NCBI GenBank assembly: GCA_022749295.1
Contig: CP062007.1
Location: forward strand, 3,566,377 to 3,630,376
DNA: 64,000 nucleotides
Direction of reading: 5' to 3'
Source of the DNA: Flavobacteriaceae bacterium GSB9
Lineage (GTDB): Bacteria > Bacteroidota > Bacteroidia > Flavobacteriales > Flavobacteriaceae
Shown: positions 17,177-62,120 of the stretch, piece by piece
Layout of the letters: each line of letters starts with the position of its first letter
How positions within the stretch are numbered: position 1 is the stretch's first letter
Position numbers and translations under genes: made by a program
Notes under the pieces: generated by a model
What the model saw: the letters and a program-made list of their open reading frames with translations, nothing else
What the model was told of the DNA's origin: nothing
Database searches by the model: none

Positions 17177-17301
17177 AACGGTCTCGTATAACCGTCAGTT
17201 ACGGGTTAATATGCGTTAATTTTCGGTTTAGCACAGACGTTAGCAATTCCGAGTGGATTCTGACGTAGTCGAATCCGCCGTAATTGCGGTTATACATTGT
17301 T
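17177..17301. repeat. attC-like site S1 (first of main array)
   Basis: AACGGTC...GTT, stem GTATAACCG / CGGTTATAC. GTTACCTACC at its end pairs with GGTAGGTAAC at 17756, on the far side of the next gene. Confidence 0.85.
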
Positions 17302-17303
17302 AC

Positions 17304-17753
17304 CTACCGTATTTTTCTTTTTATTTTTCTCCATTTACGTTTGTTCATTTCCACGAAAATCAGTCCATTTTTCCCACGTTGACCATAAATCGCGAATGTT
17401 TGGTCAGTCGGTTTGTGCAAAGTAATTTTCGTAACGTTTTCCAATTCTATGAGATTCCAAATGTTCTTTTCGTCAATCGGATATTCATTAATCACAACAA
17501 GAGGAGTATCAGGAATTGTTGATTGGTCTCGTATAATTACTTTGGTCGTAGCAGAGCGATGAGAGATACGAACTCCATTTTCATTCAGTGTGTCCCTTTC
17601 AGTCGGCTTAAAATTCAGATAATCGTATGCTTGATTTTCAATATATTCTTTCAGCGTGGTTTTTCCGTCCAGTTCTTTCCAATCCGTCACAATTTCCTGC
17701 GCATTCGAATTCAATCCGATTATGATTATCGTTATGGAAAGTAGTTTTCTCAT
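17304..17753 (-). CDS. exported TonB-plug-like protein
   Basis: 149 residues with a signal peptide (LLSITIIIIGLNSNAQ). The C-terminal 80 residues, with PLVVINEYPIDEKNIWNLIE, LENVTKITLHKPTDQTFAIY and GQRGKNGLIFVEM, match the TonB-dependent-receptor plug fold (the pattern in which a residue of the GxRGxNGVI type closes the domain). It has no barrel. The stop codon overlaps the end of S1. It is the first cassette gene and may act as a regulator or decoy of receptor signalling. Confidence 0.65.
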   Translation of the reverse strand: MRKLLSITIIIIGLNSNAQEIVTDWKELDGKTTLKEYIENQAYDYLNFKPTERDTLNENGVRISHRSATTKVIIRDQSTIPDTPLVVINEYPIDEKNIWNLIELENVTKITLHKPTDQTFAIYGQRGKNGLIFVEMNKRKWRKIKRKIR

Positions 17754-17762
17754 ATGGTAGGT

Positions 17763-17886
17763 AACGGTTTGTGTAACCTCGTCGTTGCGTGGTTTTGGTA
17801 CTAAAATAATTAAAAAGAACGGACTTTTCCGCTTGCGAGGATTTTCCGATGAGGAAAATCAGAAGCAATGCGGGTTACACGTTGTT
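17763..17886. repeat. attC-like site S2
   Basis: AACGGTTTGTGTAACC ... GGTTACAC...GTT. The outer stem has an inner inverted repeat around the TTTTCCG segments. GTGCAAC follows and pairs with GTTGCAC at 18597. Confidence 0.82.
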
Positions 17887-17897
17887 GTGCAACGTTT

Positions 17898-18293
17898 TTA
17901 TTTATACTTGGCTTTATTCTGTTCAATTGTTATTTTAAGGGCAGAACTTGAAATATTCGCATAATTTGATTCAATATCTTGTTTTACTCTTTTATATAGG
18001 CAATTATCCTTCTGCATTTTTTTAAGTATTGGGTATATTCCATTTTTTTTACGACTAACAATACTCGCCACAATCCTAATTGCCAAACCCAATTTGATTT
18101 TTTTATAAGATAAGTCATCAAAATTCCATCGACTATGTTTTAGTTTGCTATTTTTTTTAATGTCCTTTAATAGCAATTCTGTTTTGGTTGGTTTCTTTAC
18201 TTTTTTTTGCTTTTTCTTCTGTTCCAGATTTGCAAAAGGGTGGAAGGTACTAAAGCCTCTTCCTCCTCGATTTTCATATTTTAATTTAGTCAT
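17898..18293 (-). CDS. hypothetical basic protein, two-gene cassette
   Basis: 131 residues, strongly basic (EQKKKQKKVKKPTKTELLL). The C-terminal half looks helical. It lies 15 bp downstream of the gene at 18308 inside the same cassette. No family is recognised; the charge suggests nucleic-acid or ribosome binding. Confidence 0.6.
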   Translation of the reverse strand: MTKLKYENRGGRGFSTFHPFANLEQKKKQKKVKKPTKTELLLKDIKKNSKLKHSRWNFDDLSYKKIKLGLAIRIVASIVSRKKNGIYPILKKMQKDNCLYKRVKQDIESNYANISSSALKITIEQNKAKYK

Positions 18294-18307
18294 AATATTT
18301 AAGTGAC

Positions 18308-18565
18308 TTAACCAATTTTTTTAATGAATTGGTCTTTAGCTCGCAAGTAAATTCGTCCATCTGGTTTTTGGCAAACTTTTACATTTTCCGTTATGAATTT
18401 AGTTCCGATTGGATGTGATTCTCTTTCACTTTTACTACATTCAATTACCAAGTTTGTTGGTAAGTTTTGTCCACTTAAAGGTCTTACTCTAATTCTACCT
18501 GTTTCCTTGTCCTTAAAGTTTTCACATTTTATGTTTTCATAATAGTTACCTACAATTAATTCCAT
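18308..18565 (-). CDS. hypothetical small beta-rich protein
   Basis: 85 residues beginning ELIVGNYYENIKCENFKDKE, then GRIRVRPLSGQNLPTNLVIE, with no signal peptide. It looks like a small OB- or SH3-like barrel. It is the 5' gene of a two-gene cassette with 17898. Confidence 0.6.
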   Translation of the reverse strand: MELIVGNYYENIKCENFKDKETGRIRVRPLSGQNLPTNLVIECSKSERESHPIGTKFITENVKVCQKPDGRIYLRAKDQFIKKIG

Positions 18566-18603
18566 TTTGTTCAGGTTTTTGTTGATTTGGTCAAATGTTG
18601 CAC

Positions 18604-18727
18604 AACGGTTTGGCTATGATTTCGGCGTGGAATCGTCCGCAGGACTATTCCGCAGAGAAATCAAGCTAATTTAATGTTTTTACTTTTGGTTTTTGCACTG
18701 TCGCCACGCTGAATTATAGCCGTTGTT
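18604..18727. repeat. attC-like site S3
   Basis: AACGGTTTGGCTATGATTTC...GTT, stem GGCTATGATT / AATTATAGCC. Confidence 0.85.
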
Positions 18728-18743
18728 GTAAATAGTTGTTTTT

Positions 18744-20018
18744 TCAAAAATCAAATTCAGGATGCTGTTGGTCTAAATCTCTTTCATCATCGTAAAATTC
18801 ATTATCATACAAAGAACCGCCATCTTCAACTTCTCGTTCATCTACATAATCAATTCTATCCTCATAGTTCATTGTTTCTTCTTTGTCTAGTATTGACTCA
18901 ATTTCTTGTGAATCTAAATCTTGAAAGAATATTTGATATATGATTTCTTCAGGAATCCAATAATAATCTAAATCATTTGAATACTTTTTTACAAAGTCTT
19001 TACTCCAATTAATACCAACATTGCCCGATAAATTATACCAAACAACTTTATTAGCATATTTGTCTATTAATTCATTGCTCCATTTAACTTTTGTATTGCT
19101 ACACAGATAATTCCAATTAATATTATTATAAAATTTATCAATGTTTTCTTCTGTCCAGGGAAAACTTTCATTTCCGCTTAATTGTTTCCAATCCCAATTT
19201 TCATTAAACGCTTGAATCGTTTGTGAATCAAAAGTTATAGCGTTGTTCAATGATAAATATTCCCAATCCCATTCACTCTTAAATTTTTCAATTAACTCGA
19301 ATGACCAAGGAAGTGAAGTGTTTCTTGATAAACTTGGCCAATGCCAAAATCTTTTTCTTTTTGAAATATAATCTATGCTCCAAGGGATTGTTGCAGAATT
19401 TGACATTTCAAACCAATCTTTCTCATTGTTTCTACCAAACATAAAACCAGCAGTCCAATCCCATTTTTCAACTTCGATATAATTTTTTTCACAAAACTCA
19501 TATACGTTGTCTGTAATATTTTCAATTTTGGATTTCACGAAATTTTCAAGCCATTCTATGTTTAAATTTTTTGCCATAGCTTCAAAATCTAAATTATAGA
19601 AAAACTTGTCTACAATTTCTGGTGACCAATCTACATTTTCTAAAGTGCTTAATCTTTGCCAATTAATTTTTTCATCGAAAGTTTCTAAAAATTCAGTAGA
19701 AATATTTATCTGCTCGTTTAAAATAATCCAATCCCAATCCCAAAATTCTTCAAAGTTTTTAAGAAAATCTATAGACCAAGGTAAAGAAGGGTTTGAACTT
19801 AAATACTTCCAATTTAATTCAGATGAAAACTGATTAATAAATTCAATGTTCCAATTTATATTTTCGTTCATAGAAATTAGTCCAAAATCTAATTTTGTAT
19901 CAAAAATTCCAGCGTATTTATCTATCAAATTTGAGTTCAATGGATAGTAACCCGAGATTATTTTTTTAACAATCAGTTTTTTCCCTTTTTTAATATTTTC
20001 TAAAAATTCTTCAAGCAT
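18744..20018 (-). CDS. tryptophan-rich tandem-repeat protein
   Basis: 424 residues. About eleven degenerate repeats of roughly 26 residues run from about residue 40 to 365, each resembling LSxNxxLPWSxExIxKF followed by WDWxxL (for example SRNTSLPWSFELIEKFKSEW, SGNESFPWTEENIDKFYNNI, SGNVGINWSKDFVKKYSNDL). The tail is very acidic (DERDLDQQHPEFDF). No signal peptide or membrane helix. It probably forms a cytoplasmic solenoid for protein binding. It is one of the largest cassettes in the array. I do not recognise the family with certainty. Confidence 0.75.
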   Translation of the reverse strand: MLEEFLENIKKGKKLIVKKIISGYYPLNSNLIDKYAGIFDTKLDFGLISMNENINWNIEFINQFSSELNWKYLSSNPSLPWSIDFLKNFEEFWDWDWIILNEQINISTEFLETFDEKINWQRLSTLENVDWSPEIVDKFFYNLDFEAMAKNLNIEWLENFVKSKIENITDNVYEFCEKNYIEVEKWDWTAGFMFGRNNEKDWFEMSNSATIPWSIDYISKRKRFWHWPSLSRNTSLPWSFELIEKFKSEWDWEYLSLNNAITFDSQTIQAFNENWDWKQLSGNESFPWTEENIDKFYNNINWNYLCSNTKVKWSNELIDKYANKVVWYNLSGNVGINWSKDFVKKYSNDLDYYWIPEEIIYQIFFQDLDSQEIESILDKEETMNYEDRIDYVDEREVEDGGSLYDNEFYDDERDLDQQHPEFDF

Positions 20019-20042
20019 TTAGTTTGTTTCACAATTATTTAC

Positions 20043-20166
20043 AACGTTTCTGTATAAGAATAGTGCGGTTTTGTGTCCGAGGATTTTCCGCAGGAAAATC
20101 AGAGTGACCAAACACGCACTAACTTTAGGTTTTGTACTAAACTACGCATTATTTTTATATGGTGTT
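20043..20166. repeat. attC-like site S4
   Basis: AACGTTTCTGTATAAG...GTT, stem GTATAAGAATAGTGCG / CGCATTATTTTTATA. Same class as S11, S33 and S45. Confidence 0.83.
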
Positions 20167-20178
20167 AGCAACAGACTT

Positions 20179-20918: not shown

Positions 20919-21041
20919 AACGGTCTCGGCTATGAGTAGTTGCGTGGGTTAGTACTTAAAATTGCAAGTACACACCAAGCTGAAAATCCGCGAGGATTTT
21001 CAGAAGTAGGCGAGAACAAGCAATTACTTATAGCCATTGTT
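20919..21041. repeat. attC-like site S5
   Basis: AACGGTCTCGGCTATGAGTA...GTT, stem GGCTATGAGTAGTTGC / GCAATTACTTATAGCC. Nearly the same as S59. Confidence 0.85.
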
Positions 21042-21968: not shown

Positions 21969-22092
21969 AACGGTTTGGCTATGGTTTCGTTGCGTGAAAA
22001 TCCGCTAGGATTTTCCGCCGTAAACCGAAGATAGTAAATTTGCGAGGACTTTCCGAGAGGAAAGTCAGAAGCAATGAACTATAGCCGTTGTT
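21969..22092. repeat. attC-like site S6
   Basis: AACGGTTTGGCTATGGTTTC...GTT, stem GGCTATGG / CTATAGCC. Copies of this class are highly similar (S8, S29, S56, S58). Confidence 0.87.
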
Positions 22093-22581: not shown

Positions 22582-22707
22582 AACGGTCTTGTGTATGGAA
22601 AGTTGCGTGTTTGTGTGCGAGGATTTTCCGAAGGAAAATCAGAAGCTAGTAAGCAAAGCAACTAACATTGGTTAAGCTAAAAATAGCAATTTTTTATACA
22701 CGGTGTT
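22582..22707. repeat. attC-like site S7
   Basis: AACGGTCTTGTGTATGG...GTT, stem GTGTAT / ATACAC, terminal hairpin GATTTTCCGAAGGAAAATC. Confidence 0.85.
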
Positions 22708-23315: not shown

Positions 23316-23439
23316 AACGGTTTGGCTATGGTTTCGTTGCGTGAAAATCCGCGAGGATTTTCCGCCGTAAACCGAAGATAGCAAATTTGCGAGGACTTTC
23401 CGATAGGAAAGTCAGAAGCAATGAACTATAGCCGGTGTT
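23316..23439. repeat. attC-like site S8
   Basis: AACGGTTTGGCTATGG...CTATAGCCGGTGTT. Class as S6. Followed by GTACGTA, pairing with TACGTAC before S9. Confidence 0.88.
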
Positions 23440-23889: not shown

Positions 23890-24014
23890 AACGGTCTCGT
23901 ATAACCGTCAGTTACGGGTTAATATGCGTTAATTTTCAATTAAGCAGTGACTTTAGCAATTCCGAGTGGATTCGGACGTAGTCGAATCCGCCGTAATTGC
24001 GGTTATACATTGTT
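23890..24014. repeat. attC-like site S9
   Basis: AACGGTCTCGTATAACCG...CGGTTATACATTGTT. Class as S1. Confidence 0.87.
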
Positions 24015-25271: not shown

Positions 25272-25396
25272 AACGGTCTCGTATAACCGTCAGTTACGGG
25301 ATTAAAGTTAATAATTTTCGGTTAAGCACTGACGTTAGCAATTCCGAGTGGATTCGGACGTAGTCGAATCCGCCGTAATTGCGGTTATACATTGTT
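25272..25396. repeat. attC-like site S10
   Basis: AACGGTCTCGTATAACCG...CGGTTATACATTGTT. Class as S1. Followed by GCCAGTA, pairing with TACTGGC at 26106. Confidence 0.87.
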
Positions 25397-26111: not shown

Positions 26112-26236
26112 AACGGTTGGTATAAGAATAGTGCGGTTTTGTGTCCGAGGATTTTCCGCAGGAAAATCAGAGAGACCAAATACGCACTAACCTTTTGATT
26201 TAGGATTAAACTTAAGCATTATTTTTATACAATGTT
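26112..26236. repeat. attC-like site S11
   Basis: AACGGTTGGTATAAGAATAG...TTATACAATGTT. Class as S4. Confidence 0.85.
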
Positions 26237-26532: not shown

Positions 26533-26657
26533 AACGTTTATGTATAAGGAAAGTTGCGTGTTTGTGTGCGAGGATTTTCCGAAGGAAAATCAGAAGCTAG
26601 CAAACGAGCAACTAACTTTGTTTTAGCTAAAACTAGCAATTTTTTTTATACGGTGTT
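26533..26657. repeat. attC-like site S12
   Basis: AACGTTTATGTATAAGG...TTATACGGTGTT, terminal hairpin GATTTTCCGAAGGAAAATC. Confidence 0.85.
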
Positions 26658-27335: not shown

Positions 27336-27459
27336 AACGGTTTGGCTATGATTTCGGCGTGGAATCGTCCGTAGGACTATTCCGCAGAGAAATCAGCTTG
27401 GTTAAAATTACATATTTTTCAAAATAGGGCATAAGCCACGCTGAATTATAGCCGTTGTT
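27336..27459. repeat. attC-like site S13
   Basis: AACGGTTTGGCTATGATTTC...TATAGCCGTTGTT. Class as S3. Confidence 0.85.
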
Positions 27460-28090: not shown

Positions 28091-28214
28091 AACGTGTTTG
28101 TGTATGATTAGTGGCGTGTTTAAGCACCTAATTTAGCAAATAAAAACCGAATAGAAAATCCGCGAGGATTTTCGTAAGTAGGCTCTAACCAAGCCATTAA
28201 TTATAAACGGTGTT
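28091..28214. repeat. attC-like site S14
   Basis: AACGTGTTTGTGTATGATTA...ATTATAAACGGTGTT. The stop codon of the next gene lies inside its right end. Confidence 0.82.
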
Positions 28215-28722: not shown

Positions 28723-28849
28723 AACGTTTATGTGTAAGGAACGTTGCGTGCTTGTGTGCGAGGATTTTCCGAAGGAAAATCAGATGCAAGCAAGCAAAGC
28801 AATAACCAAACGGCTTAACTAAAATAAGCAATGTTTTTTACACGGTGTT
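28723..28849. repeat. attC-like site S15
   Basis: AACGTTTATGTGTAAGG...TTACACGGTGTT, hairpin GATTTTCCGAAGGAAAATC. Confidence 0.85.
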
Positions 28850-29565: not shown

Positions 29566-29692
29566 AACGTTTATGTGTATGGAAAGTTGCGTGCTTGTGT
29601 GCGAGGATTTTCCGAAGGAAAATCAGAAGCTAGCAAGCAAAGCAACTGACATTGGTTTAGTATAAAACTAGCAATTTTTTATACACGGTGTT
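29566..29692. repeat. attC-like site S16
   Basis: AACGTTTATGTGTATGG...ATACACGGTGTT, hairpin GATTTTCCGAAGGAAAATC. Confidence 0.85.
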
Positions 29693-30291: not shown

Positions 30292-30416
30292 AACGTTTGG
30301 TGTATGGTTAGTTGCGTGTGCAGCAACTAATTTAGTAAACAAATACTTGCCAGAGGAAATTCCGAAGGAATTTTCGTGATAAGCACTAGCCATAGCAATT
30401 AATTATACACGGTGTT
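30292..30416. repeat. attC-like site S17
   Basis: AACGTTTGGTGTATGG...ATACACGGTGTT. The long stem TGTATGGTTAGTTGC pairs with GCAATTAATTATACA. Confidence 0.84.
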
Positions 30417-31880: not shown

Positions 31881-32005
31881 AACGGTCTCGTATAACCGTC
31901 AGTTACGGGTTAATATGCGTTAATTTTCGGTTTGGCACAGACGTTAGCAATTCCGAGTGGATTCGGACGTAGTCGAATCCGCCGTAATTGCGGTTATACA
32001 TTGTT
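31881..32005. repeat. attC-like site S18
   Basis: AACGGTCTCGTATAACCG...CGGTTATACATTGTT. Class as S1. Confidence 0.87.
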
Positions 32006-32649: not shown

Positions 32650-32773
32650 AACGGTCTCGTGTATGAGTAGTAGCGGATTTCTAATCACTAACTTTTCAGT
32701 TTTGCACAGACCTTTGTTCTATATTTTATCTCTCGTTTTATCACTTAAACCGCTATTACTTATACACATTGTT
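32650..32773. repeat. attC-like site S19
   Basis: AACGGTCTCGTGTATGAGTA...TATACACATTGTT. The long stem GTGTATGAGTAGTAGCGG pairs with CCGCTATTACTTATACAC; the loop is unlike other classes. Confidence 0.82.
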
Positions 32774-34161: not shown

Positions 34162-34286
34162 AACGTTTATGTATAAGGAAAGTTGCGTGTTTGTATGCGA
34201 GGATTTTCCGAAGGAAAATCAGAAGCTAGCAAACGAGCAACTAACATTGGTTGAGCTAAAATTAGCAATTTTTTTTATACGGTGTT
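34162..34286. repeat. attC-like site S20
   Basis: AACGTTTATGTATAAGG...TTATACGGTGTT. Class as S12. Confidence 0.85.
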
Positions 34287-35061: not shown

Positions 35062-35185
35062 AACGTGGTTGTGTATGATTTCGTTGCGTGTTTAAGCATT
35101 AAAGTTAGCAAATAAATCACAGATAGAAAGTCCGCGAGGACTTTCGTAAGTAGGCTATAACTAGCAATGAATTATACACGGTGTT
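35062..35185. repeat. attC-like site S21
   Basis: AACGTGGTTGTGTATGATTTC...ATACACGGTGTT. Confidence 0.83.
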
Positions 35186-35198
35186 GTGTGCAGTTTTT

Positions 35199-35501
35199 TT
35201 ATTTCAGTCGTTTTTTAATATCCATTCTTTGGTGCAAAACTCTAACTATTTCCACAATATCATTTTCCACTTTTCTATAAAAAATCAAATGGGATTTTAT
35301 TTTAGTCACTCGATAATTCTTTCGAGTTTGTTCCGCTGACTTTCCAGTCATAAAGTTGTCAGCAATAAATTCAATTTCCGTAATTATCAAGTCGTAATAT
35401 CTGTCAGCTTGTTCTTTAGACCATTTATTAAGCGTATAAATCCAAATTTTATCTAAATCCTCAATCGCTTGTTGACTTATGCGATATTTGTTTTTACTCA
35501 T
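35199..35501 (-). CDS. ParE/RelE-family toxin
   Basis: 100 residues. The family features are the opening YRISQQAIEDLDKIWIYTLN, a middle KWSKEQADRYYDLIITEIEF, and the C-terminal strand pair with RVTKIKSHLIFYRKV and VRVLHQRMDIKKRL. ParE inhibits gyrase and RelE cleaves mRNA; which one applies is not settled here. It overlaps the antitoxin gene by 4 bp and forms a two-gene cassette with it. Confidence 0.88.
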   Translation of the reverse strand: MSKNKYRISQQAIEDLDKIWIYTLNKWSKEQADRYYDLIITEIEFIADNFMTGKSAEQTRKNYRVTKIKSHLIFYRKVENDIVEIVRVLHQRMDIKKRLK

Positions 35502-35740
35502 AAGTGTTTACGATGTAATTCTTTCAGATGTTGTTTTGGGTCAAAATTTTCAACAAATCCACTATTTTCTCCAACTTCGAGAGCTTTAATCAGTTCCCTT
35601 TCCTTTTTTTCTTCACGTTCTAACAAACGTAAAGCAGAACGAATTACTTCGCTAACCGAACCATATCTTCCAGAATTTACTTCTTCTCTTATAAAATCCT
35701 CAAAATGATTTCCGAGTGATATTGATGTGTTTTTTCCCAT
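35498..35740 (-). CDS. ParD-like antitoxin
   Basis: 80 residues from the ATG at 35740. ribbon-helix-helix start TSISLGNHFEDFIREEVNSG, then RYGSVSEVIRSALRLLEREE, the classic ParD pattern. The C-terminal tail (GFVENFDPKQHLKELHRKHL) wraps the toxin. The upstream in-frame residues before this ATG look like read-through of the cassette end. It probably represses its own promoter. Confidence 0.88.
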   Translation of the reverse strand: MGKNTSISLGNHFEDFIREEVNSGRYGSVSEVIRSALRLLEREEKKERELIKALEVGENSGFVENFDPKQHLKELHRKHL

Positions 35741-35798
35741 TTTGACTATATTTTTACTCAAATATACCAAATCTTGGTAACGTAGCCAAATTGCACAC

Positions 35799-35919
35799 AA
35801 CGTGATTGTGTATGGCTCGTTGCGGGAAATCAGCTATGATTTTCCGCCGTAACCTAAAGATAGCAAATTGCAATGAATTCCGATTAGGAATTCAGCCGCA
35901 ATGAGCTATACACGGTGTT
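35799..35919. repeat. attC-like site S22
   Basis: AACGTGATTGTGTATGGCTC...GAGCTATACACGGTGTT. The segment AATTCCGATTAGGAATTC forms an inner hairpin. Confidence 0.83.
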
Positions 35920-36480: not shown

Positions 36481-36606
36481 AACGTGTTTGTGTAAGGATA
36501 GTTGCGTGTGCGAGCAACTAACTTACTAAAAATGGAACGAACCAGAGGAAAATCCGTAGGATTTTCCGAGTAGGCTAGAACCAAGCAATTATTTTTACAC
36601 GTTGTT
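36481..36606. repeat. attC-like site S23
   Basis: AACGTGTTTGTGTAAGG...TTACACGTTGTT. The long stem GTGTAAGGATAGTTGC pairs with GCAATTATTTTTACAC; class as S32, S43 and S48. Confidence 0.85.
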
Positions 36607-37167: not shown

Positions 37168-37292
37168 AACGGTCTCGGCTATGATTACGTTGCGGAAAAA
37201 TCCGCAGGATTATTCCGCCGTAAAACAAAGATAATAAAAGTGAAAGGATTTTCCGATAGGAAAATCCGCCGCAATGAATTATAGGCAATGTT
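37168..37292. repeat. attC-like site S24
   Basis: AACGGTCTCGGCTATGATTA...ATTATAGGCAATGTT. Confidence 0.8.
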
Positions 37293-37548: not shown

Positions 37549-37673
37549 AACGGTAAATGTATGGAAAGTGCGAGTTTGTGTGCGAGGATTTTCCGAAGGA
37601 AAATCAGAAGCTAACAAACGAGCAAAGACCATTCGATTAAGGACTAAAGTAAGCATTTTTTATACATATTGTT
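37549..37673. repeat. attC-like site S25 (3' site of non-coding unit, copy 1)
   Basis: AACGGTAAATGTATGG...TATACATATTGTT. Identical or nearly so to S34 and S37. Confidence 0.86.
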
Positions 37674-37972: not shown

Positions 37973-38096
37973 AACGGTTCGTGTAAGAATCCGTTGCGGA
38001 AAATTAATGAATTATGAGAGAAAAAAGAAACAAAATTAAGATAGAAAGAGGACTTTCCGAAGGAAATGTCCGAAGCAATGGTTTTTACACATTGTT
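37973..38096. repeat. attC-like site S26
   Basis: AACGGTTCGTGTAAGAATCC...TTTTTACACATTGTT. The middle is unusual, with a run of AGAGAAAAAAGAAAC. Confidence 0.78.
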
Positions 38097-38632: not shown

Positions 38633-38757
38633 AACGGTTAAGCTAAGATTACGTTGCGGAAAAATCCGCAGGATTCTTTCCGCCGAGAGACGAAGATAGC
38701 AAAAGTGTATGGATTTTCCGATAGGAAAATCCGCCGCAATGAATTTTAGGTATTGTT
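38633..38757. repeat. attC-like site S27
   Basis: AACGGTTAAGCTAAGATTAC...ATTTTAGGTATTGTT. The stem AAGCTAAGATT pairs with AATTTTAGGT imperfectly. Confidence 0.78.
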
Positions 38758-39088: not shown

Positions 39089-39211
39089 AACGGTATGTAT
39101 AAGGTTTGTTGCGTGAAAATCCGTGAGGATTTTCAGATTAAGAAACCAAGATAGTAAAATTGCGAGTATTTTCTGTAGGAAAATCCGAAGCAATGAACTT
39201 TATATGGTGTT
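39089..39211. repeat. attC-like site S28
   Basis: AACGGTATGTATAAGG...CTTTATATGGTGTT. Confidence 0.8.
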
Positions 39212-39722: not shown

Positions 39723-39846
39723 AACGGTTTGGCTATGGTTTCGTTGCGTGAAAATCCGCGAGGATTTTCCGCAGTAAACCGAAGATAGCAAATTTGCGAG
39801 GACTTTCCGAGAGGAAAGTCAGAAGCAATGAACTATAGCCGGTGTT
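39723..39846. repeat. attC-like site S29
   Basis: AACGGTTTGGCTATGG...CTATAGCCGGTGTT. Class as S6. Confidence 0.87.
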
Positions 39847-40289: not shown

Positions 40290-40412
40290 AACGGTTTGTA
40301 TATGAAAAGTAGGCGGTTTTGAAGTACAAAACTTTCGGTTAGGCATAAACTTTGATACGAGCCAAAAGCCTTAATTTTATTGATGTTTCGCCTATTTTTT
40401 ATATACATTGTT
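40290..40412. repeat. attC-like site S30 (3' site of SUKH-like cassette, copy 1)
   Basis: AACGGTTTGTATATGAAAAG...TTTTTATATACATTGTT. The long stem GTATATGAAAAGTAGGCG pairs with CGCCTATTTTTTATATAC. One base differs from S50. Confidence 0.87.
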
Positions 40413-41031: not shown

Positions 41032-41155
41032 AACGTTTGGTATATGGAAAGTTGCGTGTTTGTGTGCGAGGATTTTCCGAAGGAAAATCAGAAGCTAGCA
41101 AACGAGCAACTAACATTGGTTTAGCTAAAACTAGCAATTTTTTATATACTGTGTT
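41032..41155. repeat. attC-like site S31
   Basis: AACGTTTGGTATATGG...TATATACTGTGTT, hairpin GATTTTCCGAAGGAAAATC. Confidence 0.84.
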
Positions 41156-41625: not shown

Positions 41626-41750
41626 AACGTTTGGTGTAAGGATAGTTGCGTGATTAAGCAACTAACTTAACAAAAATGGAACGAACCAGAGGAAAATCCG
41701 CAGGATTTTCCGAGTAGGCAAGAACCAAGCAATTATTTTTACACTTTGTT
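41626..41750. repeat. attC-like site S32
   Basis: AACGTTTGGTGTAAGG...TTACACTTTGTT. Class as S23. Confidence 0.84.
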
Positions 41751-42710: not shown

Positions 42711-42837
42711 AACGGTTACGTATAAGAATAGTGCGTAGTTTGTGTGCGAGGATTTTCCGAAGGAAAATCAGATGCAAGCAAACAAGTACTAACTTTTGAT
42801 TTAGAAATAAACTTACGCATTATTTTTATACAATGTT
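42711..42837. repeat. attC-like site S33
   Basis: AACGGTTACGTATAAG...TTATACAATGTT. Class as S4. The boxes of the following cassette match only at GTTGTG. Confidence 0.8.
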
Positions 42838-43349: not shown

Positions 43350-43474
43350 AACGGTAAATGTATGGAAAGTGCGAGTTTGTGTGCGAGGATTTTCCGAAGG
43401 AAAATCAGAAGCTAACAAACGAGCAAAGACCATTCGATTAAGGACTAAAGTAAGCATTTTTTATACATATTGTT
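43350..43474. repeat. attC-like site S34 (3' site of non-coding unit, copy 2)
   Basis: AACGGTAAATGTATGG...TATACATATTGTT. Matches S25 and S37. Confidence 0.86.
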
Positions 43475-43773: not shown

Positions 43774-43900
43774 TAACGGTTTAGGCTATGGTTTCGTTGC
43801 GGAATGATTCGGCAGAATTATTCCGCCGTAAACCAAACATTGTAAACACGCAGGAATTTCCGTTGAGGAAATTCCGCCGCAATGAACTATAGCCAGTGTT
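43774..43900. repeat. attC-like site S35
   Basis: AACGGTTTAGGCTATGGTTT...CTATAGCCAGTGTT. Confidence 0.84.
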
Positions 43901-44434: not shown

Positions 44435-44559
44435 AACGTTTGGTATATGGAAAGTTGCGTGTTTGTAAGCGAGGATTTTCCGAAAGAAAATCAGAAGCCA
44501 GCAAACAAAGCAACTCACATAGGTTAAGCTAAAACTAGCAATTTTTTATATACTTTGTT
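44435..44559. repeat. attC-like site S36
   Basis: AACGTTTGGTATATGG...TATATACTTTGTT. Class as S31. Confidence 0.84.
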
Positions 44560-45159: not shown

Positions 45160-45284
45160 AACGGTAAATGTATGGAAAGTGCGAGTTTGTGTGCGAGGAT
45201 TTTCCGAAGGAAAATCAGAAGCTAACAAACGAGCAAAGACCATTCGATTAAGGACTAAAGTAAGCATTTTTTATACATATTGTT
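45160..45284. repeat. attC-like site S37 (3' site of non-coding unit, copy 3)
   Basis: AACGGTAAATGTATGG...TATACATATTGTT. Matches S25 and S34. Confidence 0.86.
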
Positions 45285-45583: not shown

Positions 45584-45707
45584 TAACGGAGAGTGTATGG
45601 TGTTGTGCGGGATTACGAAGCGATTTCTTATCAAGTTACACCGACTTATTTTTACGAGCCACAAACACCCGAAAACTTCCGAAACCCGCATGCACTATAC
45701 ACATTGT
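45584..45707. repeat. attC-like site S38 with unrelated loop
   Basis: AACGGAGAGTGTATGG...TATACACATTGTT. The stem GTGTATGGTGTTGTGCGGG pairs with CCCGCATGCACTATACAC, but the about 90-nt interior shares nothing with any other class. Only the architecture is kept. Confidence 0.8.
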
Positions 45708-46306
45708 TGTGCAATCGTACTTTTTTTTATTGTTTCTATTTTATTATTTATCTCTATTATTTCTTGGTCAGTTAATTCCTGAATCTTATAAATATGCTCC
45801 TCTATTAAAGTTTGCAACTCAATCGAATGATTATTAATAACTATTGAATCCAAATGTGAAAAATCAAATCGAGTTTTAAATGAATCATTAAGACGTATTC
45901 CTTTTTTGTCAATTATTATGGTTCTGGTCAGAAAGATAAAACCTAAGAGGATAAAGCCAAATCCGTACGCATAATCCTCCTTTATAAAACCAAAAAGTAA
46001 CTCCTCAGTATCAGAATCAGTATATCCATCATGAATTCTTAGTAAACCTATGATTGACCATAAAATCAAATATATCCAGTTGTATTTTTTAAGTCGAAGT
46101 ATAATCTTATTCTTTAAGATTGGGCTTTGAAATCTCGAAACGTAAAAGGTATATAATAGAACACCATAAGCTACAATAATCAAAATTTCAATGGTCAATC
46201 TGGAACTTAAGAGGTCACTGAAAAAATAGAATATTAAAATTATCCCGATTAATAATCCAAAGGCGATTCTGAAAAATCTAACTGCGTCTCTCATTTTATT
46301 TGTCAA
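45695..46306 (-). CDS. membrane protein with C-terminal PH-like region
   Basis: 203 residues. Four membrane helices (IAFGLLIGIILIFYFFSDLL, LTIEILIIVAYGVLLYTFYV, WIYLILWSIIGLLRIHDGY and YGFGFILLGFIFLTRTIIID) are followed by KKGIRLNDSFKTRFDFSHLD and SIVINNHSIELQTL, a bacterial-PH-like strand set. The last residues (IAQQCV) are encoded by S38. First gene of a two-gene cassette with 46344. Confidence 0.65.
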   Translation of the reverse strand: MTNKMRDAVRFFRIAFGLLIGIILIFYFFSDLLSSRLTIEILIIVAYGVLLYTFYVSRFQSPILKNKIILRLKKYNWIYLILWSIIGLLRIHDGYTDSDTEELLFGFIKEDYAYGFGFILLGFIFLTRTIIIDKKGIRLNDSFKTRFDFSHLDSIVINNHSIELQTLIEEHIYKIQELTDQEIIEINNKIETIKKSTIAQQCV

Positions 46307-46586: not shown

Positions 46587-46713
46587 AACGTGATTGTGTA
46601 TGGTTAGTTGCGTGTGTAAGCAACTAATTTAGTAAACAAAAACGAACCAGAGAAAATTCCGAAGGAATTTTCCAAATAAGCACTTGCCAAAGCAATTAAT
46701 TATACACGGTGTT
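46587..46713. repeat. attC-like site S39
   Basis: AACGTGATTGTGTATGG...ATACACGGTGTT. The stem pairs GTGTATGGTTAGTTGC with GCAATTAATTATACAC. Confidence 0.83.
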
Positions 46714-47628: not shown

Positions 47629-47750
47629 AACGTTTGGTGTATGGTTAGTGGCGTGTTTAAGCACCTAATTTAGCAAATACAAACCAAATAGAAAATCCGC
47701 GAGGATTTTCGTAAGTAGGCTAGAACTAGCCATTAATTATACACGGTGTT
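47629..47750. repeat. attC-like site S40
   Basis: AACGTTTGGTGTATGG...ATACACGGTGTT. Confidence 0.84.
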
Positions 47751-48228: not shown

Positions 48229-48353
48229 AACGTTTATGTATAAGGAAAGTTGCGTGTTTGTGTGCGAGGATTTTCCGAAGGAAAATCAGAAGCTAGCAAA
48301 CGAGCAACTAACTTTGGTTTAGCTAAAACTAGCAATTTTTTTTATACGGTGTT
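48229..48353. repeat. attC-like site S41
   Basis: AACGTTTATGTATAAGG...TTATACGGTGTT. Class as S12. Confidence 0.85.
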
Positions 48354-48711: not shown

Positions 48712-48836
48712 AACGGTTCGTATAACCGTCAGTTATCGGTTTAATTTACTTTGTTTTTCGGTTTAGCACTGTCGTTAGCAATTCCGAGTGGATTCGGACG
48801 TAGTCGAATCCGCCGTAATTGCGGTTATACATTGTT
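48712..48836. repeat. attC-like site S42
   Basis: AACGGTTCGTATAACCG...CGGTTATACATTGTT. Class as S1. Confidence 0.86.
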
Positions 48837-49321: not shown

Positions 49322-49447
49322 AACGTGTTTGTGTAAGGATAGTTGCGTGTGCAAGCAACTAACTTACTAAAAATGGAACGAACCAGAGGAAAATCCGCAG
49401 GATTTTCCGAGTAGGCTAGAACCAAGCAATTATTTTTACACGGTGTT
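49322..49447. repeat. attC-like site S43
   Basis: AACGTGTTTGTGTAAGG...TTACACGGTGTT. Class as S23. The next gene's stop lies in its right end. Confidence 0.85.
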
Positions 49448-50038: not shown

Positions 50039-50162
50039 AACGGTTTTGTATAACAATCAGTTGCGGATTGGTTTGAAACTAAGATAGCTAAAATTACCGA
50101 CTTTTATGCTTGCGCGGTTTTGTCCGCAGTACACAAAGCCGCAATTGTTGTTATACGGTGTT
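50039..50162. repeat. attC-like site S44
   Basis: AACGGTTTTGTATAACAATC...GTTATACGGTGTT. The long stem GTATAACAATCAGTTGCGG pairs with CCGCAATTGTTGTTATAC. Confidence 0.83.
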
Positions 50163-50711: not shown

Positions 50712-50836
50712 AACGGTTCGTATAAGAATAGTGCGTAGTTTGAGTGCGAGGATTTTCCGAAGGAAAATCAGATGCAAGCAAACAAGCACTAACTTTTGAT
50801 TTAGGAATAAACTTACGCATTATTTTTATACATTGT
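50712..50836. repeat. attC-like site S45
   Basis: AACGGTTCGTATAAGAATAG...TTATACATTGTT. Class as S4. Confidence 0.85.
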
Positions 50837-50848
50837 TGTGTGTAGTTT

Positions 50849-51281: not shown

Positions 51282-51403
51282 AACGGTTTGTATATGAAAA
51301 GTAGCGGATTTTAGTCACTAACTTTTCGGATTATAACAGACCTTTAATTTATTCATTTTGTTTCGTTTAAGCGATTAAATCGCTATTTTTTATATACGTT
51401 GTT
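51282..51403. repeat. attC-like site S46
   Basis: AACGGTTTGTATATGAAAAG...TTTATATACGTTGTT. The stem GTATATGAAAAGTAGCGG pairs with CGCTATTTTTTATATAC. Confidence 0.84.
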
Positions 51404-52419: not shown

Positions 52420-52542
52420 AACGTTTGTGTGTATGATTAGTGGCGTGTATAAGCCACTAATTTAGCAAATACAAACCGAATAGAAAATCCGCGAGGATTT
52501 TCGTAAGTAGGCTAGAACTAGCCATTAATTATACACGTTGTT
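52420..52542. repeat. attC-like site S47
   Basis: AACGTTTGTGTGTATGATTA...ATTATACACGTTGTT. Confidence 0.83.
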
Positions 52543-53055: not shown

Positions 53056-53180
53056 AACGGTTTGTGTAAGGATAGTTGCGTGTGCAAGCAACTAACTTAC
53101 TAAAAATGGAACGAACCAGAGGAAAATCCGCAGGATTTTCCGAGTAGGCTAGAACCAAGCAATTATTTTTACACGGTGTT
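53056..53180. repeat. attC-like site S48
   Basis: AACGGTTTGTGTAAGG...TTACACGGTGTT. Class as S23. Confidence 0.85.
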
Positions 53181-54491: not shown

Positions 54492-54613
54492 AACGCTGAG
54501 TATATGCAAAGTAGGCGATTGCTGGAATCAAACTTATCAAACCGTTAAAATTTTGATACGGGCTACAGCCTTTGAATTTACTACTATTTCGCCTATTTTG
54601 TATATACATTGTT
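54492..54613. repeat. attC-like site S49
   Basis: AACGCTGAGTATATGCAAAG...TATATACATTGTT. The stem GTATATGCAAAGTAGGCG pairs with CGCCTATTTTGTATATAC. Confidence 0.83.
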
Positions 54614-55652: not shown

Positions 55653-55775
55653 AACGGTTTGTATATGAAAAGTAGGCGGTTTTGAAGCACAAAACTTTCG
55701 GTTAGGCATAAACTTTGATACGAGCCAAAAGCCTTAATTTTATTGATGTTTCGCCTATTTTTTATATACATTGTT
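55653..55775. repeat. attC-like site S50 (3' site of SUKH-like cassette, copy 2)
   Basis: AACGGTTTGTATATGAAAAG...TTTTTATATACATTGTT. Matches S30 but for one base. Confidence 0.87.
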
Positions 55776-56394: not shown

Positions 56395-56519
56395 AACGGT
56401 TCGTATAACCGTCAGTTATCGGTTTAGTTTACTTTGTTTTTCGGTTAAGCACTGTCGTTAGCAATTCCGAGTGGATTCGGACGTAGTCGAATCTGCCGTA
56501 ATTGCGGTTATATAGTGTT
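56395..56519. repeat. attC-like site S51
   Basis: AACGGTTCGTATAACCG...CGGTTATATAGTGTT. Class as S1. Confidence 0.85.
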
Positions 56520-56964: not shown

Positions 56965-57089
56965 AACGGTTTGTATAACCGTCAGTTATCGGTTTAGATT
57001 ACTTTGTTTTTCGGTTTAGCACAGGTTTTAGCAATTCCGAGTGGATTCGGACGCAGTCGAATCCGCCGTAATTGCGGTTATATATTGTT
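56965..57089. repeat. attC-like site S52
   Basis: AACGGTTTGTATAACCG...CGGTTATATATTGTT. Class as S1. Both flanks carry the same box GTGTGGTAAC. Confidence 0.85.
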
Positions 57090-57712: not shown

Positions 57713-57836
57713 AACGTGTTTGTGTATGATTTCGTTGCGTATTTCAGCAACTAAATTAGCAAATACAAACCGAATAGAAAATCCGCGAGGATTTTCGTAA
57801 GTAGGCGAGTACTAGCAATGAATTATACACGGTGTT
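57713..57836. repeat. attC-like site S53
   Basis: AACGTGTTTGTGTATGATTT...ATTATACACGGTGTT. Confidence 0.83.
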
Positions 57837-58459: not shown

Positions 58460-58583
58460 AACGTTTGGTATAAGAAAAGTTGCGTGTTTGTGTGCGAGGA
58501 TTTTCCGAAGGAAAATCAGAAGCTAGCAAACGAGCAACAAACTTTGGTTTAGCTTAAACTAGCAATTTTTTTTATACGGTGTT
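58460..58583. repeat. attC-like site S54
   Basis: AACGTTTGGTATAAG...TTATACGGTGTT, hairpin GATTTTCCGAAGGAAAATC. Confidence 0.85.
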
Positions 58584-58594
58584 GCCAGTAGTTT

Positions 58595-59335: not shown

Positions 59336-59361
59336 TATTGGCTGGTTTTCAAATTACTGGC

Positions 59362-59487
59362 AACGTTGATGTATATGGAAAGTTGCGTGTTTGCGTGCGA
59401 GGATTTTCCGAAGGAAAATCAGAAGCTAGCAAACGAGCAACTAACATTGGTTTAGGATAAAACTAGCAATTTTTTATATACTGTGTT
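59362..59487. repeat. attC-like site S55
   Basis: AACGTTGATGTATATGG...TATATACTGTGTT. Class as S31. Confidence 0.84.
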
Positions 59488-59500
59488 GTACACAGTACTT

Positions 59501-60043
59501 TTATTTCCATTTTTCTATTAATTCAACCACTCCGTTTTTAATTCCGTCATAAAAGTTTCCATTTTTAAATTCAGGAATGATGGTCTGTTCAATTACATTT
59601 TTACAAATTTGGTCAGTCAAAATGAGTTCAGTTCCAAATCCAGTTGCAATTCCGATTTTCTGACAAGGTTTACAAAGCAGAATTATCAGTCCATTATCTT
59701 TTTCCGCTGTTCCAACTCCCCAATATTTTCCCAAATCCGTTGCCATTTTTTGTATGTCAGAATATGGATTTATACTATCAATTGTTACAACAACTATTTG
59801 TCGGGTTGTTTCAATATTGTAGTCATAAATAATGTTCGACAGTTCTTTCCTTTGTGAAGGACTAAATATGCTGTCATAATCATTCAATATTAGACCTTTA
59901 AGTTTTGTTTCTCGAAATTTTTCAACTGATGAGAAATCAAATTCAGTAGTAGTTTTTTTTGTTTCAGTTTCCTGTGCTGAACCTCTGCAAGAAAGCAGAT
60001 TTAAAGTCAGAAAAAGGATTAATATTTTAGTTCCGATTTTCAT
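59501..60043 (-). CDS. TPM-domain lipoprotein
   Basis: 180 residues from the ATG at 60043 (MKIGTKILILFLTLNLLSCR, lipobox LLSCRG). The TPM-domain core is clear: LSNIIYDYNIETTRQIVVVT, DIQKMATDLGKYWGVGTAEK, DNGLIILLCKPCQKIGIATG, FGTELILTDQICKNVIEQTI. TPM domains occur in membrane-assembly and photosystem-repair proteins. Here on a lipoprotein, probably facing the periplasm. Confidence 0.85.
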   Translation of the reverse strand: MKIGTKILILFLTLNLLSCRGSAQETETKKTTTEFDFSSVEKFRETKLKGLILNDYDSIFSPSQRKELSNIIYDYNIETTRQIVVVTIDSINPYSDIQKMATDLGKYWGVGTAEKDNGLIILLCKPCQKIGIATGFGTELILTDQICKNVIEQTIIPEFKNGNFYDGIKNGVVELIEKWK

Positions 60044-60059
60044 TTTTCGTATTGTGTAC

Positions 60060-60183
60060 AACGGTTTGGCTATGGTTTCGTTGCGTGAAAATCCGCGAGG
60101 ATTTTCCGCCGTAAACCGAAGATAGCAAATTTGCGAGGACTTTCCGAGAGGAAAGTCGGAAGCAATGAATTATAGCCGGTGTT
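60060..60183. repeat. attC-like site S56
   Basis: AACGGTTTGGCTATGG...TATAGCCGGTGTT. Class as S6. Confidence 0.87.
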
Positions 60184-60196
60184 GGGTGTAGTTTTT

Positions 60197-60640
60197 TTAA
60201 TTAAGATTTATAATTTTATCAGCTATTTCTTTATTTTCCGATAATGGTTCGTAAATCGTATCAATTTTATTTTCATAATTTATAGTTTTTTGTAAAAAAA
60301 GGTCCAGAAAATACATTTTATTTTGATTTGGGTCAGCAGTTGAAAATTCTACTTTGCAATATAATTTGTCATTCACTATAAAATAGTCATGTCCACAATC
60401 TTCTCCTTTATATTTTATCCCATTAAAATAAAATTCATAATAGTAATTTGAACTACAGTTTCTGTCTGTCAAATTTTTAGTTTTCTTATATATTTTTCCA
60501 AAAGTGAAAGAGTAATTTTCAGAAATGTCATTTTCCTTTTTTATACTTTTTGAGATAATAAATCCAATAATCAGAATAAATCCGAGATAAATAAAAATTC
60601 TGATTCCATTTGATTTATTCAAAGTCTTAAGAGTTTTCAA
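60197..60640 (-). CDS. membrane-anchored hypothetical protein (147 aa)
   Basis: One N-terminal membrane helix (GIRIFIYLGFILIIGFIISK) and a soluble C-terminal part with NRCSSNYYYEFYFNGIKYKG, then EDCGHDYFIVNDKLYCKVEF, containing paired Cys. Its cassette shows the clearest terminal boxes: GTTGGGTGTA and TACACCCAAC. Confidence 0.6.
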   Translation of the reverse strand: MKTLKTLNKSNGIRIFIYLGFILIIGFIISKSIKKENDISENYSFTFGKIYKKTKNLTDRNCSSNYYYEFYFNGIKYKGEDCGHDYFIVNDKLYCKVEFSTADPNQNKMYFLDLFLQKTINYENKIDTIYEPLSENKEIADKIINLN

Positions 60641-60649
60641 ATTACACCC

Positions 60650-60772
60650 AACGGTTGGTGTAAAGATAGTTGCGTGGTTAAGCCCTCAAGATAGCAAAAG
60701 GAAAAATACGAAAGGAAAGTCCGCAGGACTTTCCGATGAGCAATGACCTAGCAATTATTTTTACACGGTGTT
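60650..60772. repeat. attC-like site S57
   Basis: AACGGTTGGTGTAAAGATAG...TTACACGGTGTT. Confidence 0.83.
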
Positions 60773-60788
60773 GGCAAATCGTTTTATT

Positions 60789-61268
60789 TTAGAATCCGAT
60801 TCCAAAAGATTTTTTGTCAGTTATCATTTTTTTCTTTTTTCTAACCCCCAAAATTGTAAAAATCAAAGTAAAAATTGGCAAATAAAAGGGAAGCCTTGAG
60901 TTTAAGAAATAATAGACCAATAAATCCAAGACAATTCCAAATCCGAGATATTTTATTAGATTTCCATTATTATTTCTAAAATCTCTTTCTATAGTCAAAA
61001 ATTGACCACTTTTGAGCACATATTTACCATACAAATCAAGTGATGTTTTTTTCCCAGTTGGTAAATCGGTCACTTTAAGTTCATCAATATAATCAGCCAT
61101 TAAAGATTTATATTTTTCCGATTCTTTGTTGTTGTGGAATTTCAATAACTGATTTATAATGTTTAATGTAGAATTAAAGTGAATTTGCTTTTTTATTTCC
61201 TCCGTTTCAGATTCAAATAAGTTTATAAATTCCTCTAATTTTTCTTTTAAAACTTCGTTTTTCATCAA
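60789..61268 (-). CDS. hypothetical protein with C-terminal membrane helices (159 aa)
   Basis: Helical, Glu/Lys-rich N-terminal segment (LEEFINLFESETEEIKKQIH), a middle NNKESEKYKSLMADYIDELK, and two membrane helices near the C-terminus (YLGFGIVLDLLVYYFL and FYLPIFTLIFTILGVRKKK). Unknown family. Confidence 0.55.
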   Translation of the reverse strand: MMKNEVLKEKLEEFINLFESETEEIKKQIHFNSTLNIINQLLKFHNNKESEKYKSLMADYIDELKVTDLPTGKKTSLDLYGKYVLKSGQFLTIERDFRNNNGNLIKYLGFGIVLDLLVYYFLNSRLPFYLPIFTLIFTILGVRKKKKMITDKKSFGIGF

Positions 61269-61294
61269 TGATAGAGAATTTCTAAATGTTTGCC

Positions 61295-61418
61295 AACGGT
61301 TTGGCTATGGTTTCGTTGCGTGAAAATCCGCGAGGATTTTCCGCCGTAAACCGAAGATAGCAAATTTGCGAGGACTTTCCGCGAGGAAAGTCAGAAGCAA
61401 TGAACTATAGCCGGTGTT
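61295..61418. repeat. attC-like site S58
   Basis: AACGGTTTGGCTATGG...CTATAGCCGGTGTT. Class as S6. Confidence 0.87.
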
Positions 61419-61429
61419 GTGTGTAGTTT

Positions 61430-61981
61430 TTATTTCAATTCATTTTTTACTTTCTTTTCCAAACGTTCTAATGTGCGTATGTTATAAATTGAATCATTAT
61501 AACTTAACCATTCTTTTTTAAAATCAGAATAATAACGTCTATGCATTTTATCAAAATCGGATGCTTTTAAATCTTTTACGCTCAATTTTCTAAAACTATC
61601 AACTTCTTTTTCCATTCTGCGCCGATACGTTTCAAGTAAATCAAATTTAACTTGAGCAACTCTTAAATTTCTTGGGTCAGTTGTATCAGATATTTTTGCG
61701 TTTTTAGGCTCAAAAACTGTATGAGACCTAAATAAAATCGGGTCATTTACATTAAACCTAGAGTGAAGTCCTATTCTTGCGTCAAGGTCTTTTAATTCGG
61801 GGTCTGTAGTAAAATTAAAGTCAGAATATTTAAGTTTTCTATTCTCCGTCCAAACAATTTTGTCCTTAAGGGTCAAGTATTCCGAAAAGTCATAATAGTA
61901 ACTCATAAAAAACAATCGAAATGTTATAAATCCAAGGATTATTATGGAAATTGCCAGAATAATTTTTCTTTTTCTATTCAT
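61430..61981 (-). CDS. membrane-anchored hypothetical protein (183 aa)
   Basis: N-terminal membrane helix (IILAISIIILGFITFRLFFM) followed by a soluble domain with VWTENRKLKYSDFNFTTDPE, LKDLDARIGLHSRFNVNDPI, LRVAQVKFDLLETYRRRMEK and basic helices. The WTENRKLKYSDF start and the VAQVKFDLLE helix resemble DUF922-like exported peptidase-type proteins; no HExxH is visible. Not assigned. Confidence 0.6.
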   Translation of the reverse strand: MNRKRKIILAISIIILGFITFRLFFMSYYYDFSEYLTLKDKIVWTENRKLKYSDFNFTTDPELKDLDARIGLHSRFNVNDPILFRSHTVFEPKNAKISDTTDPRNLRVAQVKFDLLETYRRRMEKEVDSFRKLSVKDLKASDFDKMHRRYYSDFKKEWLSYNDSIYNIRTLERLEKKVKNELK

Positions 61982-61998
61982 GTTCTCAAATTACACAC

Positions 61999-62120
61999 AA
62001 CGGCTCGGCTATGAGTAGTTGCGTGGGTTAGTACATAACTTTGCAAGTACATACCAAACTGAAAATCCGCGAGGATTTTCAGAAGTAGGCGAGAATAAGC
62101 AATTACTTATAGCCATTGTT
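61999..62120. repeat. attC-like site S59 (last complete in window)
   Basis: AACGGCTCGGCTATGAGTAG...CTTATAGCCATTGTT. Class as S5. No second boundary is seen to its right before the window ends. Confidence 0.84.

Follow-up and report, generated by a model that had tools for sequence, protein, structure and literature searches.

Organization of the cassette array

The window analysed here is a stretch of 64,000 bases of Flavobacteriaceae bacterium GSB9, the last 64 kb of a single contig of 3,630,376 bases (CP062007.1; hereafter C1), and it carries a long array of gene cassettes separated by palindromic sites that resemble the attC sites of integrons. The sequence-only reading that preceded this work counted 59 such palindromes of 121-127 bp; the same count was given by a purpose-written finder based on AAC...GTT ends and L-box pairing, all sites lying in a single orientation between 17177 and 62120 (Table 1). 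A covariance model, built from 72 sites (the 59 of the window and 13 others), recovered these sites and added two outlying ones, with weak matches at 2305-2421 and 12432-12574. A finder match at 15552, without the shared motifs, was discarded as false. In Rfam, no match was obtained at gathering scores.

The array runs past base 64000 into C1:1-10129, where 12 further sites are located. We consider the contig circular because an open reading frame (ORF) of 1053 aa spans the junction and the junction-spanning cassette has a matching 7-base code of the type described below. All genes had been read as pointing in the same direction, which is nearly the case: the longest ORF is in sense in 63 of the 72 cassettes and antisense in two, the other seven being without an ORF of 60 aa. 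Over the four arrays examined, those of this genome and one of a congener, 131 of 148 cassettes have their longest frame in sense and 4 have it in antisense, and 13 are without one. In the whole genome 127 covariance-model matches (E <= 0.001) were detected, 118 within three arrays as delimited and 9 elsewhere. Isolated attC-like sites are found distant from the arrays, for instance at C1:1514790, 1082723 and 332987.

The array head

The window alone contains no visible integrase, as noted in the earlier reading, but a recombinase gene is present in the genome at C1:10740-11867. On the gene strand, this gene for a tyrosine recombinase (375 aa) is followed by TATATAGTTAATATTAACTATATACAATTGTT and then by the code of the first cassette. 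Between recombinase and first cassette there is a dyad with GTT at its end, hereafter the attI-like site. The suggestion of an integrase-less cluster was therefore abandoned, the recombinase and the attI-like site heading the array from outside the window.

The order recombinase-attI-cassette occurs twice more in the same genome, at C1:2.19 Mb and 3.11 Mb. These two loci have about 1.5 kb in common, which covers a partner gene, the recombinase and attI and shows a single mismatch over its first 1455 bases; they diverge directly past the attI GTT, and their first cassettes differ. Since the two platforms are near-identical (L020:9302-10833 and L021) and adjoin different tRNA genes, the platform itself may be mobile.

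For comparison we used the best 80 of 530 loci from a scan of named genomes (the relative loci); in 60 of them a site follows the recombinase on the same strand. By means of the code the attI junction was located in 48 of the 60, and it lies 38-84 bases past the recombinase stop in 44 of these (113, 134 and 177 bases in three others, with an outlier at 588). The 45 bases ahead of the junction include a dyad with 8 or more paired bases in each arm and one mismatch at most in 44 of 48 loci (median 10.5, against a mean of 5.7 after shuffling). The recombinase, the adjacent attI and the cassettes inserted at attI, which together make up an integron platform, are thus all found.

A divergently oriented gene for a zinc-ribbon protein adjoins the recombinase in 77 of the 80 relative loci, while none was found in 20 Xer-type loci. 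The protein has 1244 relatives, the best 120 of which carry at most such names as 'hypothetical', 'Zn-ribbon', 'RING finger' or 'uncharacterized'. Its predicted fold was good (91.1), and the best structural matches (E 0.28 in PDB, 0.016 among viral models) were not convincing; the search of PDB by sequence gave no match, and family searches gave weak matches alone, some of them to HNH endonucleases.

Structure of the attC-like sites

Each site can be drawn as a hairpin with 14 pairs in the outer arms. Across the 72 sites, 98.2% of 963 cells are standard pairs, and 151 cells are changed on both sides. Covariation of the outer arms amounted to 0.412 against 0.092 for shuffled arms (none of 500 shuffles reached the observed value) and at most 0.072 when the partner was slid. 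By DNA folding, the bottom strand, opposite to the genes, is the more stable in 69 of 72 sites. On the gene strand A faces C at two positions in all 72 sites of this genome, and each of the two was kept in 148 of the 150 sites that were aligned from 19 other loci (150 of 155 matches were aligned, the congener's locus L177 being left out); A.C is also present directly outside the code in 130 of 148 cassettes. The gene-strand A.C mismatches are G.T pairs on the opposite strand, and so make a consistent mark of the strand, with a putative use in strand choice.

The AAC/GTT triplets of R'' and R' and a paired L box, as in attC, are present, and the central spacer is unpaired and asymmetric in 72 of 72 sites (3 versus 5 or 6 bases). 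The R''-L'' arm of attC carries extrahelical bases, the first of which is called absolutely conserved in PMC2727003. Such bases are missing here: all 72 sites, and likewise all 150 of the other loci, have a left arm of 16 bases, and the surplus base, if any, sits on the other arm, where one base fewer was counted in 5 of 72 and 4 of 150 sites. Site lengths are mostly 120-130 bp, with others of about 60, 160 and 190 bp.

Cassette codes

The 6-7 bases directly outside GTT and AAC form a code that is private to each cassette and complementary across the gene. Complementarity between neighbouring repeats had been noticed from the letters alone, and it was confirmed by count: at least 6 bases match in 68 of 71 consecutive site pairs, 55 of them with 7, as compared with a mean of 2.24 and a maximum of 8 for re-dealt partners. 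Inside one and the same site, complementarity reaches 6 bases in 4 of 72 alone. With the outlying sites included, codes match in 69 of 72 pairs of this array, in 6 of 7 and 31 of 33 of the other arrays and in 32 of 36 of the congener (138 of 148 for the four arrays together), and also in 155 of 191 pairs of the relative loci and 99 of 118 of further relatives. Of 148 codes, 147 have A or G as their first base. The core consensus of classical attC is GTTRRRY, which is present in 11 of 153 cases. The sites thus differ from attC in two defining features, the extrahelical bases and GTTRRRY. Among homologous cassettes, no double change of a code was detected; six pairs differ, each by one base that breaks one code.

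The recombinase is neither IntI nor XerC/XerD

The two recombinases scanned gave 201.8 and 205.8 bits with the IntI profile TIGR02249, below its cut-off of 265. With the XerA-type profile NF040815 (cut-off 220), the recombinase of the array passes (235.2) and the sister enzyme misses (214.5). The distance between the KGxKxR and HxLRH motifs is 58-59 residues in array-type recombinases (28 measured of 30), 100 in IntI of other Bacteroidota (24 of 30) and 62-66 in Xer-type proteins (22 of 22). The IntI insertion of about 42 residues (I2 region, before the HxxR motif) is absent from the array-type recombinase, and the alignments with TIGR02249 and with IntI4 (2a3v) break at this insertion. The earlier reading had proposed a search of the flanking genome for a tyrosine recombinase with the IntI-specific patch: the recombinase was found, the IntI-specific insertion was not. 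The recombinase, failing both tests that define IntI, is outside the IntI family, so that the proviso under which a new gene-capture system had been suggested, a recombinase other than IntI, holds.

The best matches among solved structures are archaeal XerA-like proteins. The active-site motifs, with the residues that we take to be catalytic, are invariant across 15 aligned rows. A structure predicted from these 15 rows was poor (mean pLDDT 62.5) and was not used. For the phylogenetic tree, two archaeal XerA fragments were added and IntI was thinned from 30 to 15 rows; three groups alone cannot fix the root. IntI forms a single clade (100/100), and array-type recombinases together with IntI are set apart from XerC, XerD and XerA (99/93). 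IntI stands beside the array type at 90/71, and the array-type group itself is weak (81/18); the tree therefore fits both loss of the insertion and its original absence. The array-type recombinases do not belong to the housekeeping XerC/XerD lineage, because Xer-type genes, named XerC/XerD by score and tree position, occur alongside them as distinct genes in these genomes and group in a clade of their own.

Association of recombinase and sites

Among the relative loci, 13 are on contigs that end within 300 bases. A site was found in 52 of 54 relative loci with at least 2 kb of downstream DNA, and in all 34 with at least 5 kb. Downstream matches numbered 255 and upstream matches 7, despite 1.9 times more upstream DNA searched; these counts use 262 of 268 model matches, two on the minus strand (one atop a plus-strand site) and four partial ones having been dropped.

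A set of 20 complete genomes, picked for having sites, contains 88 places with a match to the recombinase profile. Of these, 26 score above 230 bits and 40, of XerC/XerD type, score 110-138 bits; the 22 with scores in between were set aside. We fetched 20 of the 26 array-type loci and, as controls, 20 of the 40 XerC/XerD-type loci. Sites, 226 in total, were found in each of the 20 array-type loci, all of them downstream on the recombinase strand (by inspection, and by script for the 150 aligned), whereas the 20 controls of the same genome set hold none.

Sites were detected in 228 of 249 genomes of the family, which is Flavobacteriaceae to judge by its named relatives. In the same 249 genomes no IntI above the cut-off was found, the same search giving 107 of 392 genomes across the phylum as a positive control. 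Across the phylum, sites are present in 84 of 392 genomes, and in this set one genus of the family (g112) accounts for at least 20 genomes without sites. A phage collection yielded one weak record.

Some other recombinases were seen during these searches. In L220 (G292:C44), elsewhere in the phylum, recombinase and array are oriented divergently and not codirectionally. Single sites in L214, L215 and L216 are adjoined by tyrosine recombinases of about 300 aa that are present in multiple copies and may be a transposon family with such sites as its target. A Chryseobacterium plasmid (L210) and a Persicobacter plasmid (L211) carry recombinases of this kind; that of L210 is followed by same-strand genes, and L210 also carries a group II intron reverse transcriptase and palindromes of 140 bp that are near-perfect. 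A tyrosine recombinase with 52.6% identity over 61% of the query is common on Acinetobacter plasmids (49 records); one record, from an uncultured bacterium, gives it the name TnpF.

Cassette movement and cargo

Near-identical cassettes occur at different places, with identity ending close to the cassette boundaries. Two arrays share a cassette with 99.6% identity over 756 bases (block ends at -6/+3 of the boundaries), and within this array the same identity was found for a pair with block ends at -10/+3. In the congener, cassettes are 100% identical over 414 bases (-2/+3). One cassette, of 425 bp, has a counterpart in another genus that matches it at 99.5% over 431 bases, with block ends at -4/+2. 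For other pairs the identity extends beyond the cassette into a neighbouring site of similar sequence (block ends at most about -140/+24); in one instance two adjacent cassettes were copied together. Among 114 foreign loci, counterparts at 88% were found for just 3 of 112 own cassettes (one family).

The 66 cassette proteins gave few Pfam matches, nine families in all, including amidohydrolase, SUKH-4, ParD, ParE, TPM, MORN and DKNYY, and one protein matches a candidate defence family. In the 1053-aa cassette protein, the N-terminal 430 residues match KAP-family P-loop NTPases. The far end of the array is interrupted by an insertion sequence with an integrase-core (rve) transposase pair (15853-17105), and the codes of the cassette carrying it no longer match. 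The genes scanned within 1-14000 are ordinary ones (carboxylesterase, AraC-type regulators, a DUF3237 protein).

Table 1. Features of the array in the window (positions without prefix) and on the rest of contig C1. CM, covariance model.
Feature	Position	Strand	Basis
Cassette array main stretch, 59 sites	17177..62120	-	finder + CM
attC-like site	61999..62120	-	finder + CM
attC-like site	61295..61418	-	finder + CM
attC-like site	60650..60772	-	finder + CM
attC-like site	60060..60183	-	finder + CM
attC-like site	59362..59487	-	finder + CM
attC-like site	58460..58583	-	finder + CM
attC-like site	57713..57836	-	finder + CM
attC-like site	56965..57089	-	finder + CM
attC-like site	56395..56519	-	finder + CM
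attC-like site	55653..55775	-	finder + CM
attC-like site	54492..54613	-	finder + CM
attC-like site	53056..53180	-	finder + CM
attC-like site	52420..52542	-	finder + CM
attC-like site	51282..51403	-	finder + CM
attC-like site	50712..50837	-	finder + CM
attC-like site	50039..50162	-	finder + CM
attC-like site	49322..49447	-	finder + CM
attC-like site	48712..48836	-	finder + CM
attC-like site	48229..48353	-	finder + CM
attC-like site	47629..47750	-	finder + CM
attC-like site	46587..46713	-	finder + CM
attC-like site	45585..45708	-	finder + CM
attC-like site	45160..45284	-	finder + CM
attC-like site	44435..44559	-	finder + CM
attC-like site	43775..43900	-	finder + CM
attC-like site	43350..43474	-	finder + CM
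attC-like site	42711..42837	-	finder + CM
attC-like site	41626..41750	-	finder + CM
attC-like site	41032..41155	-	finder + CM
attC-like site	40290..40412	-	finder + CM
attC-like site	39723..39846	-	finder + CM
attC-like site	39089..39211	-	finder + CM
attC-like site	38633..38757	-	finder + CM
attC-like site	37973..38096	-	finder + CM
attC-like site	37549..37673	-	finder + CM
attC-like site	37168..37292	-	finder + CM
attC-like site	36481..36606	-	finder + CM
attC-like site	35799..35919	-	finder + CM
attC-like site	35062..35185	-	finder + CM
attC-like site	34162..34286	-	finder + CM
attC-like site	32650..32773	-	finder + CM
attC-like site	31881..32005	-	finder + CM
attC-like site	30292..30416	-	finder + CM
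attC-like site	29566..29692	-	finder + CM
attC-like site	28723..28849	-	finder + CM
attC-like site	28091..28214	-	finder + CM
attC-like site	27336..27459	-	finder + CM
attC-like site	26533..26657	-	finder + CM
attC-like site	26112..26236	-	finder + CM
attC-like site	25272..25396	-	finder + CM
attC-like site	23890..24014	-	finder + CM
attC-like site	23316..23439	-	finder + CM
attC-like site	22582..22707	-	finder + CM
attC-like site	21969..22092	-	finder + CM
attC-like site	20919..21041	-	finder + CM
attC-like site	20043..20166	-	finder + CM
attC-like site	18604..18727	-	finder + CM
attC-like site	17763..17886	-	finder + CM
attC-like site, last one ahead of insertion sequence	17177..17301	-	finder + CM
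attC-like site past insertion sequence	14488..14608	-	finder + CM
Outlying attC-like site	10274..10399	-	CM, 75 bits
Outlying attC-like site	7314..7435	-	CM, 56 bits
1053-aa cassette gene, part	62129..64000, continuing C1:1-1290	-	ORF over contig junction
ParD/ParE toxin-antitoxin cassette	35199..35800 (35498-35800 + 35199-35501)	-	Pfam
Recombinase gene, 375 aa	C1:10740-11867	-	10.7-11.9 kb past window end

Discussion

The expectation of a large integron-type cassette array in a member of the Bacteroidota was borne out. The locus works like an integron, all the platform features open to a test on sequence being present, and we conclude, with a probability of about 0.78, that it is an integron-like system with a recombinase lacking the IntI insertion, which likely captures, stores and shuffles one-gene cassettes through predicted folded single strands. 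Each cassette consists of GTT and a code, a gene nearly always in sense, and the complementary code followed by AAC...CGTT. The recombinase is predicted to cut at the GTT of attI and at that of the folded site. In a free circular cassette the two halves of the code would come together and restore a complete R arm; this would account for codes that match across the gene and are in other respects close to arbitrary. The folded strand is probably the bottom strand, because the invariant A.C positions of the gene strand become G.T pairs there. The zinc-ribbon protein encoded beside most main-branch recombinases may be an accessory factor or a regulator.

Several observations weigh against this interpretation. 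Single-strand folding of the sites had been proposed as a check: the arms covary as those of a hairpin, but many whole-site minimum-energy folds prefer internal hairpins and leave the outer arms unpaired (38 of 72 for the top strand, 21 of 72 for the bottom strand), and the hairpin is therefore argued from covariation, not from energy. Excision and integration are seen as footprints, that is as cassette-bounded identity, and no recombination was seen. Two relative loci, L100 and L111, have more than 2 kb downstream and no site, and 36 of the 191 pairs in the relative loci are without a matching code. Two genomes, G062 and G144, have sites, yet no array-type recombinase above 137.3 bits. Of ten site-bearing genomes outside the family, five have an array-type recombinase (E 1e-40) and five have no match; some of the ten have IntI, so that in these genomes the model may be picking up classical attC sites as well. 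Just 12 of the 20 fetched array-type loci, each taken with about 1.5 kb of upstream DNA, showed the zinc-ribbon gene, which is therefore mainly a property of some branches.

The same array and recombinase might also operate on double-stranded or cruciform sites, by two strand exchanges as Xer does at dif, and need no single strand. The open outer arms agree with such a mode, as do the passing of NF040815 and the absence of the insertion that is said to confer the single-strand activity of IntI. Against it are the hairpin covariation, the different stability of the two strands and the invariant A.C/G.T pairs. Moreover, dif sites are 28 bp long, unlike these palindromes of mostly 120-130 bp, with others of about 60, 160 and 190. 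We hold this mode unlikely. That the array is decayed and inactive, maintained by neutral drift, could be read from the outlying and uncoded sites and from the insertion sequence that breaks its far end; it is very unlikely in view of the intact codes in 138 of 148, the near-identical cassettes at different places, the 99.5% cassette common to another genus and the invariant active-site motifs in 15 rows.

An old array of a classical integron, with IntI lost or acting from elsewhere and the neighbouring recombinase a bystander, would suit the two genomes with sites and no array-type recombinase, and the IntI-specific-domain rule of integron surveys would class the array as integrase-less. It is highly improbable, since none of the 249 family genomes has IntI above the cut-off and 228 have sites, and an array-type recombinase heads the array in 20 of 20 fetched loci while the 20 XerC/XerD-type loci are without a site. 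Many similar palindromes would also be expected from a repeat family of REP or transposon type between unrelated genes, but this leaves the private codes, the fixed orientation and the adjacent recombinase and attI unexplained, finds no counterpart in Rfam at gathering scores, and is hardly credible.

Among known systems, the integron-like system proposed here resembles sedentary chromosomal integrons, such as the Vibrio superintegron with its VCR sites, in having an integrase, attI and a long array of mostly sense, mostly uncharacterised single-gene cassettes with a toxin-antitoxin pair, and its sites resemble theirs in AAC/GTT, in C ahead of GTT, in the unpaired central spacer and in the better-folding bottom strand. 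It differs from sedentary chromosomal integrons in the recombinase without the IntI insertion, in the R box being a private code instead of GTTRRRY, in the lack of an extra base on the R''-L'' arm and in the divergent zinc-ribbon gene (77 of 80). The catalytic core without the insertion is shared with XerA, XerC and XerD; unlike Xer/dif, the array-type recombinases are set apart in the tree (99/93) and adjoin arrays, all 20 XerC/XerD-type loci being siteless. Under the IntI-specific-domain rule of surveys, the array would count among the clusters called CALIN, from which it differs by the recombinase and attI at its head. Among plasmid-borne relatives in the Cytophagales, that of Rufibacter tibetensis (L212) has a recombinase with the same spacing (58), followed by a run of same-strand genes and coded sites; it differs in its short sites of about 60 bp and in lying on a plasmid typed as mobilizable, and the longer chain of codes there was read by eye, only two sites passing the script.

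We put even odds on the broader proposal of a second integron lineage, widespread in Flavobacteriaceae and also on Cytophagales plasmids, with single-strand recombination in the absence of the I2 helix, strand choice via the A.C/G.T pairs and help from the zinc-ribbon partner. This lineage may be a living sister of IntI that predates the gain of the insertion. In PMC7790495, the I2 insertion is called necessary for cassette capture and present in no other protein, and single-strand recombination is called exclusive to integron integrases. A recombinase without the insertion, heading covarying attC-like arrays, makes the claim of I2 necessity directly testable.

No report of this system was found in the literature searched, which was without bioRxiv and with few subscription papers, and a term search of PMC8352920 gave no word for Bacteroidota. 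A RefSeq-wide survey names one complete integron in Bacteroidetes proper, that of Salinibacter (PMC9024848), whereas sites are present here in 228 of 249 Flavobacteriaceae genomes. Integron surveys that require the IntI-specific domain would skip this recombinase; a large pool of likely mobile genes, most of them without a Pfam match, may therefore be uncounted. The private codes are also a built-in readout of the cassette boundaries.

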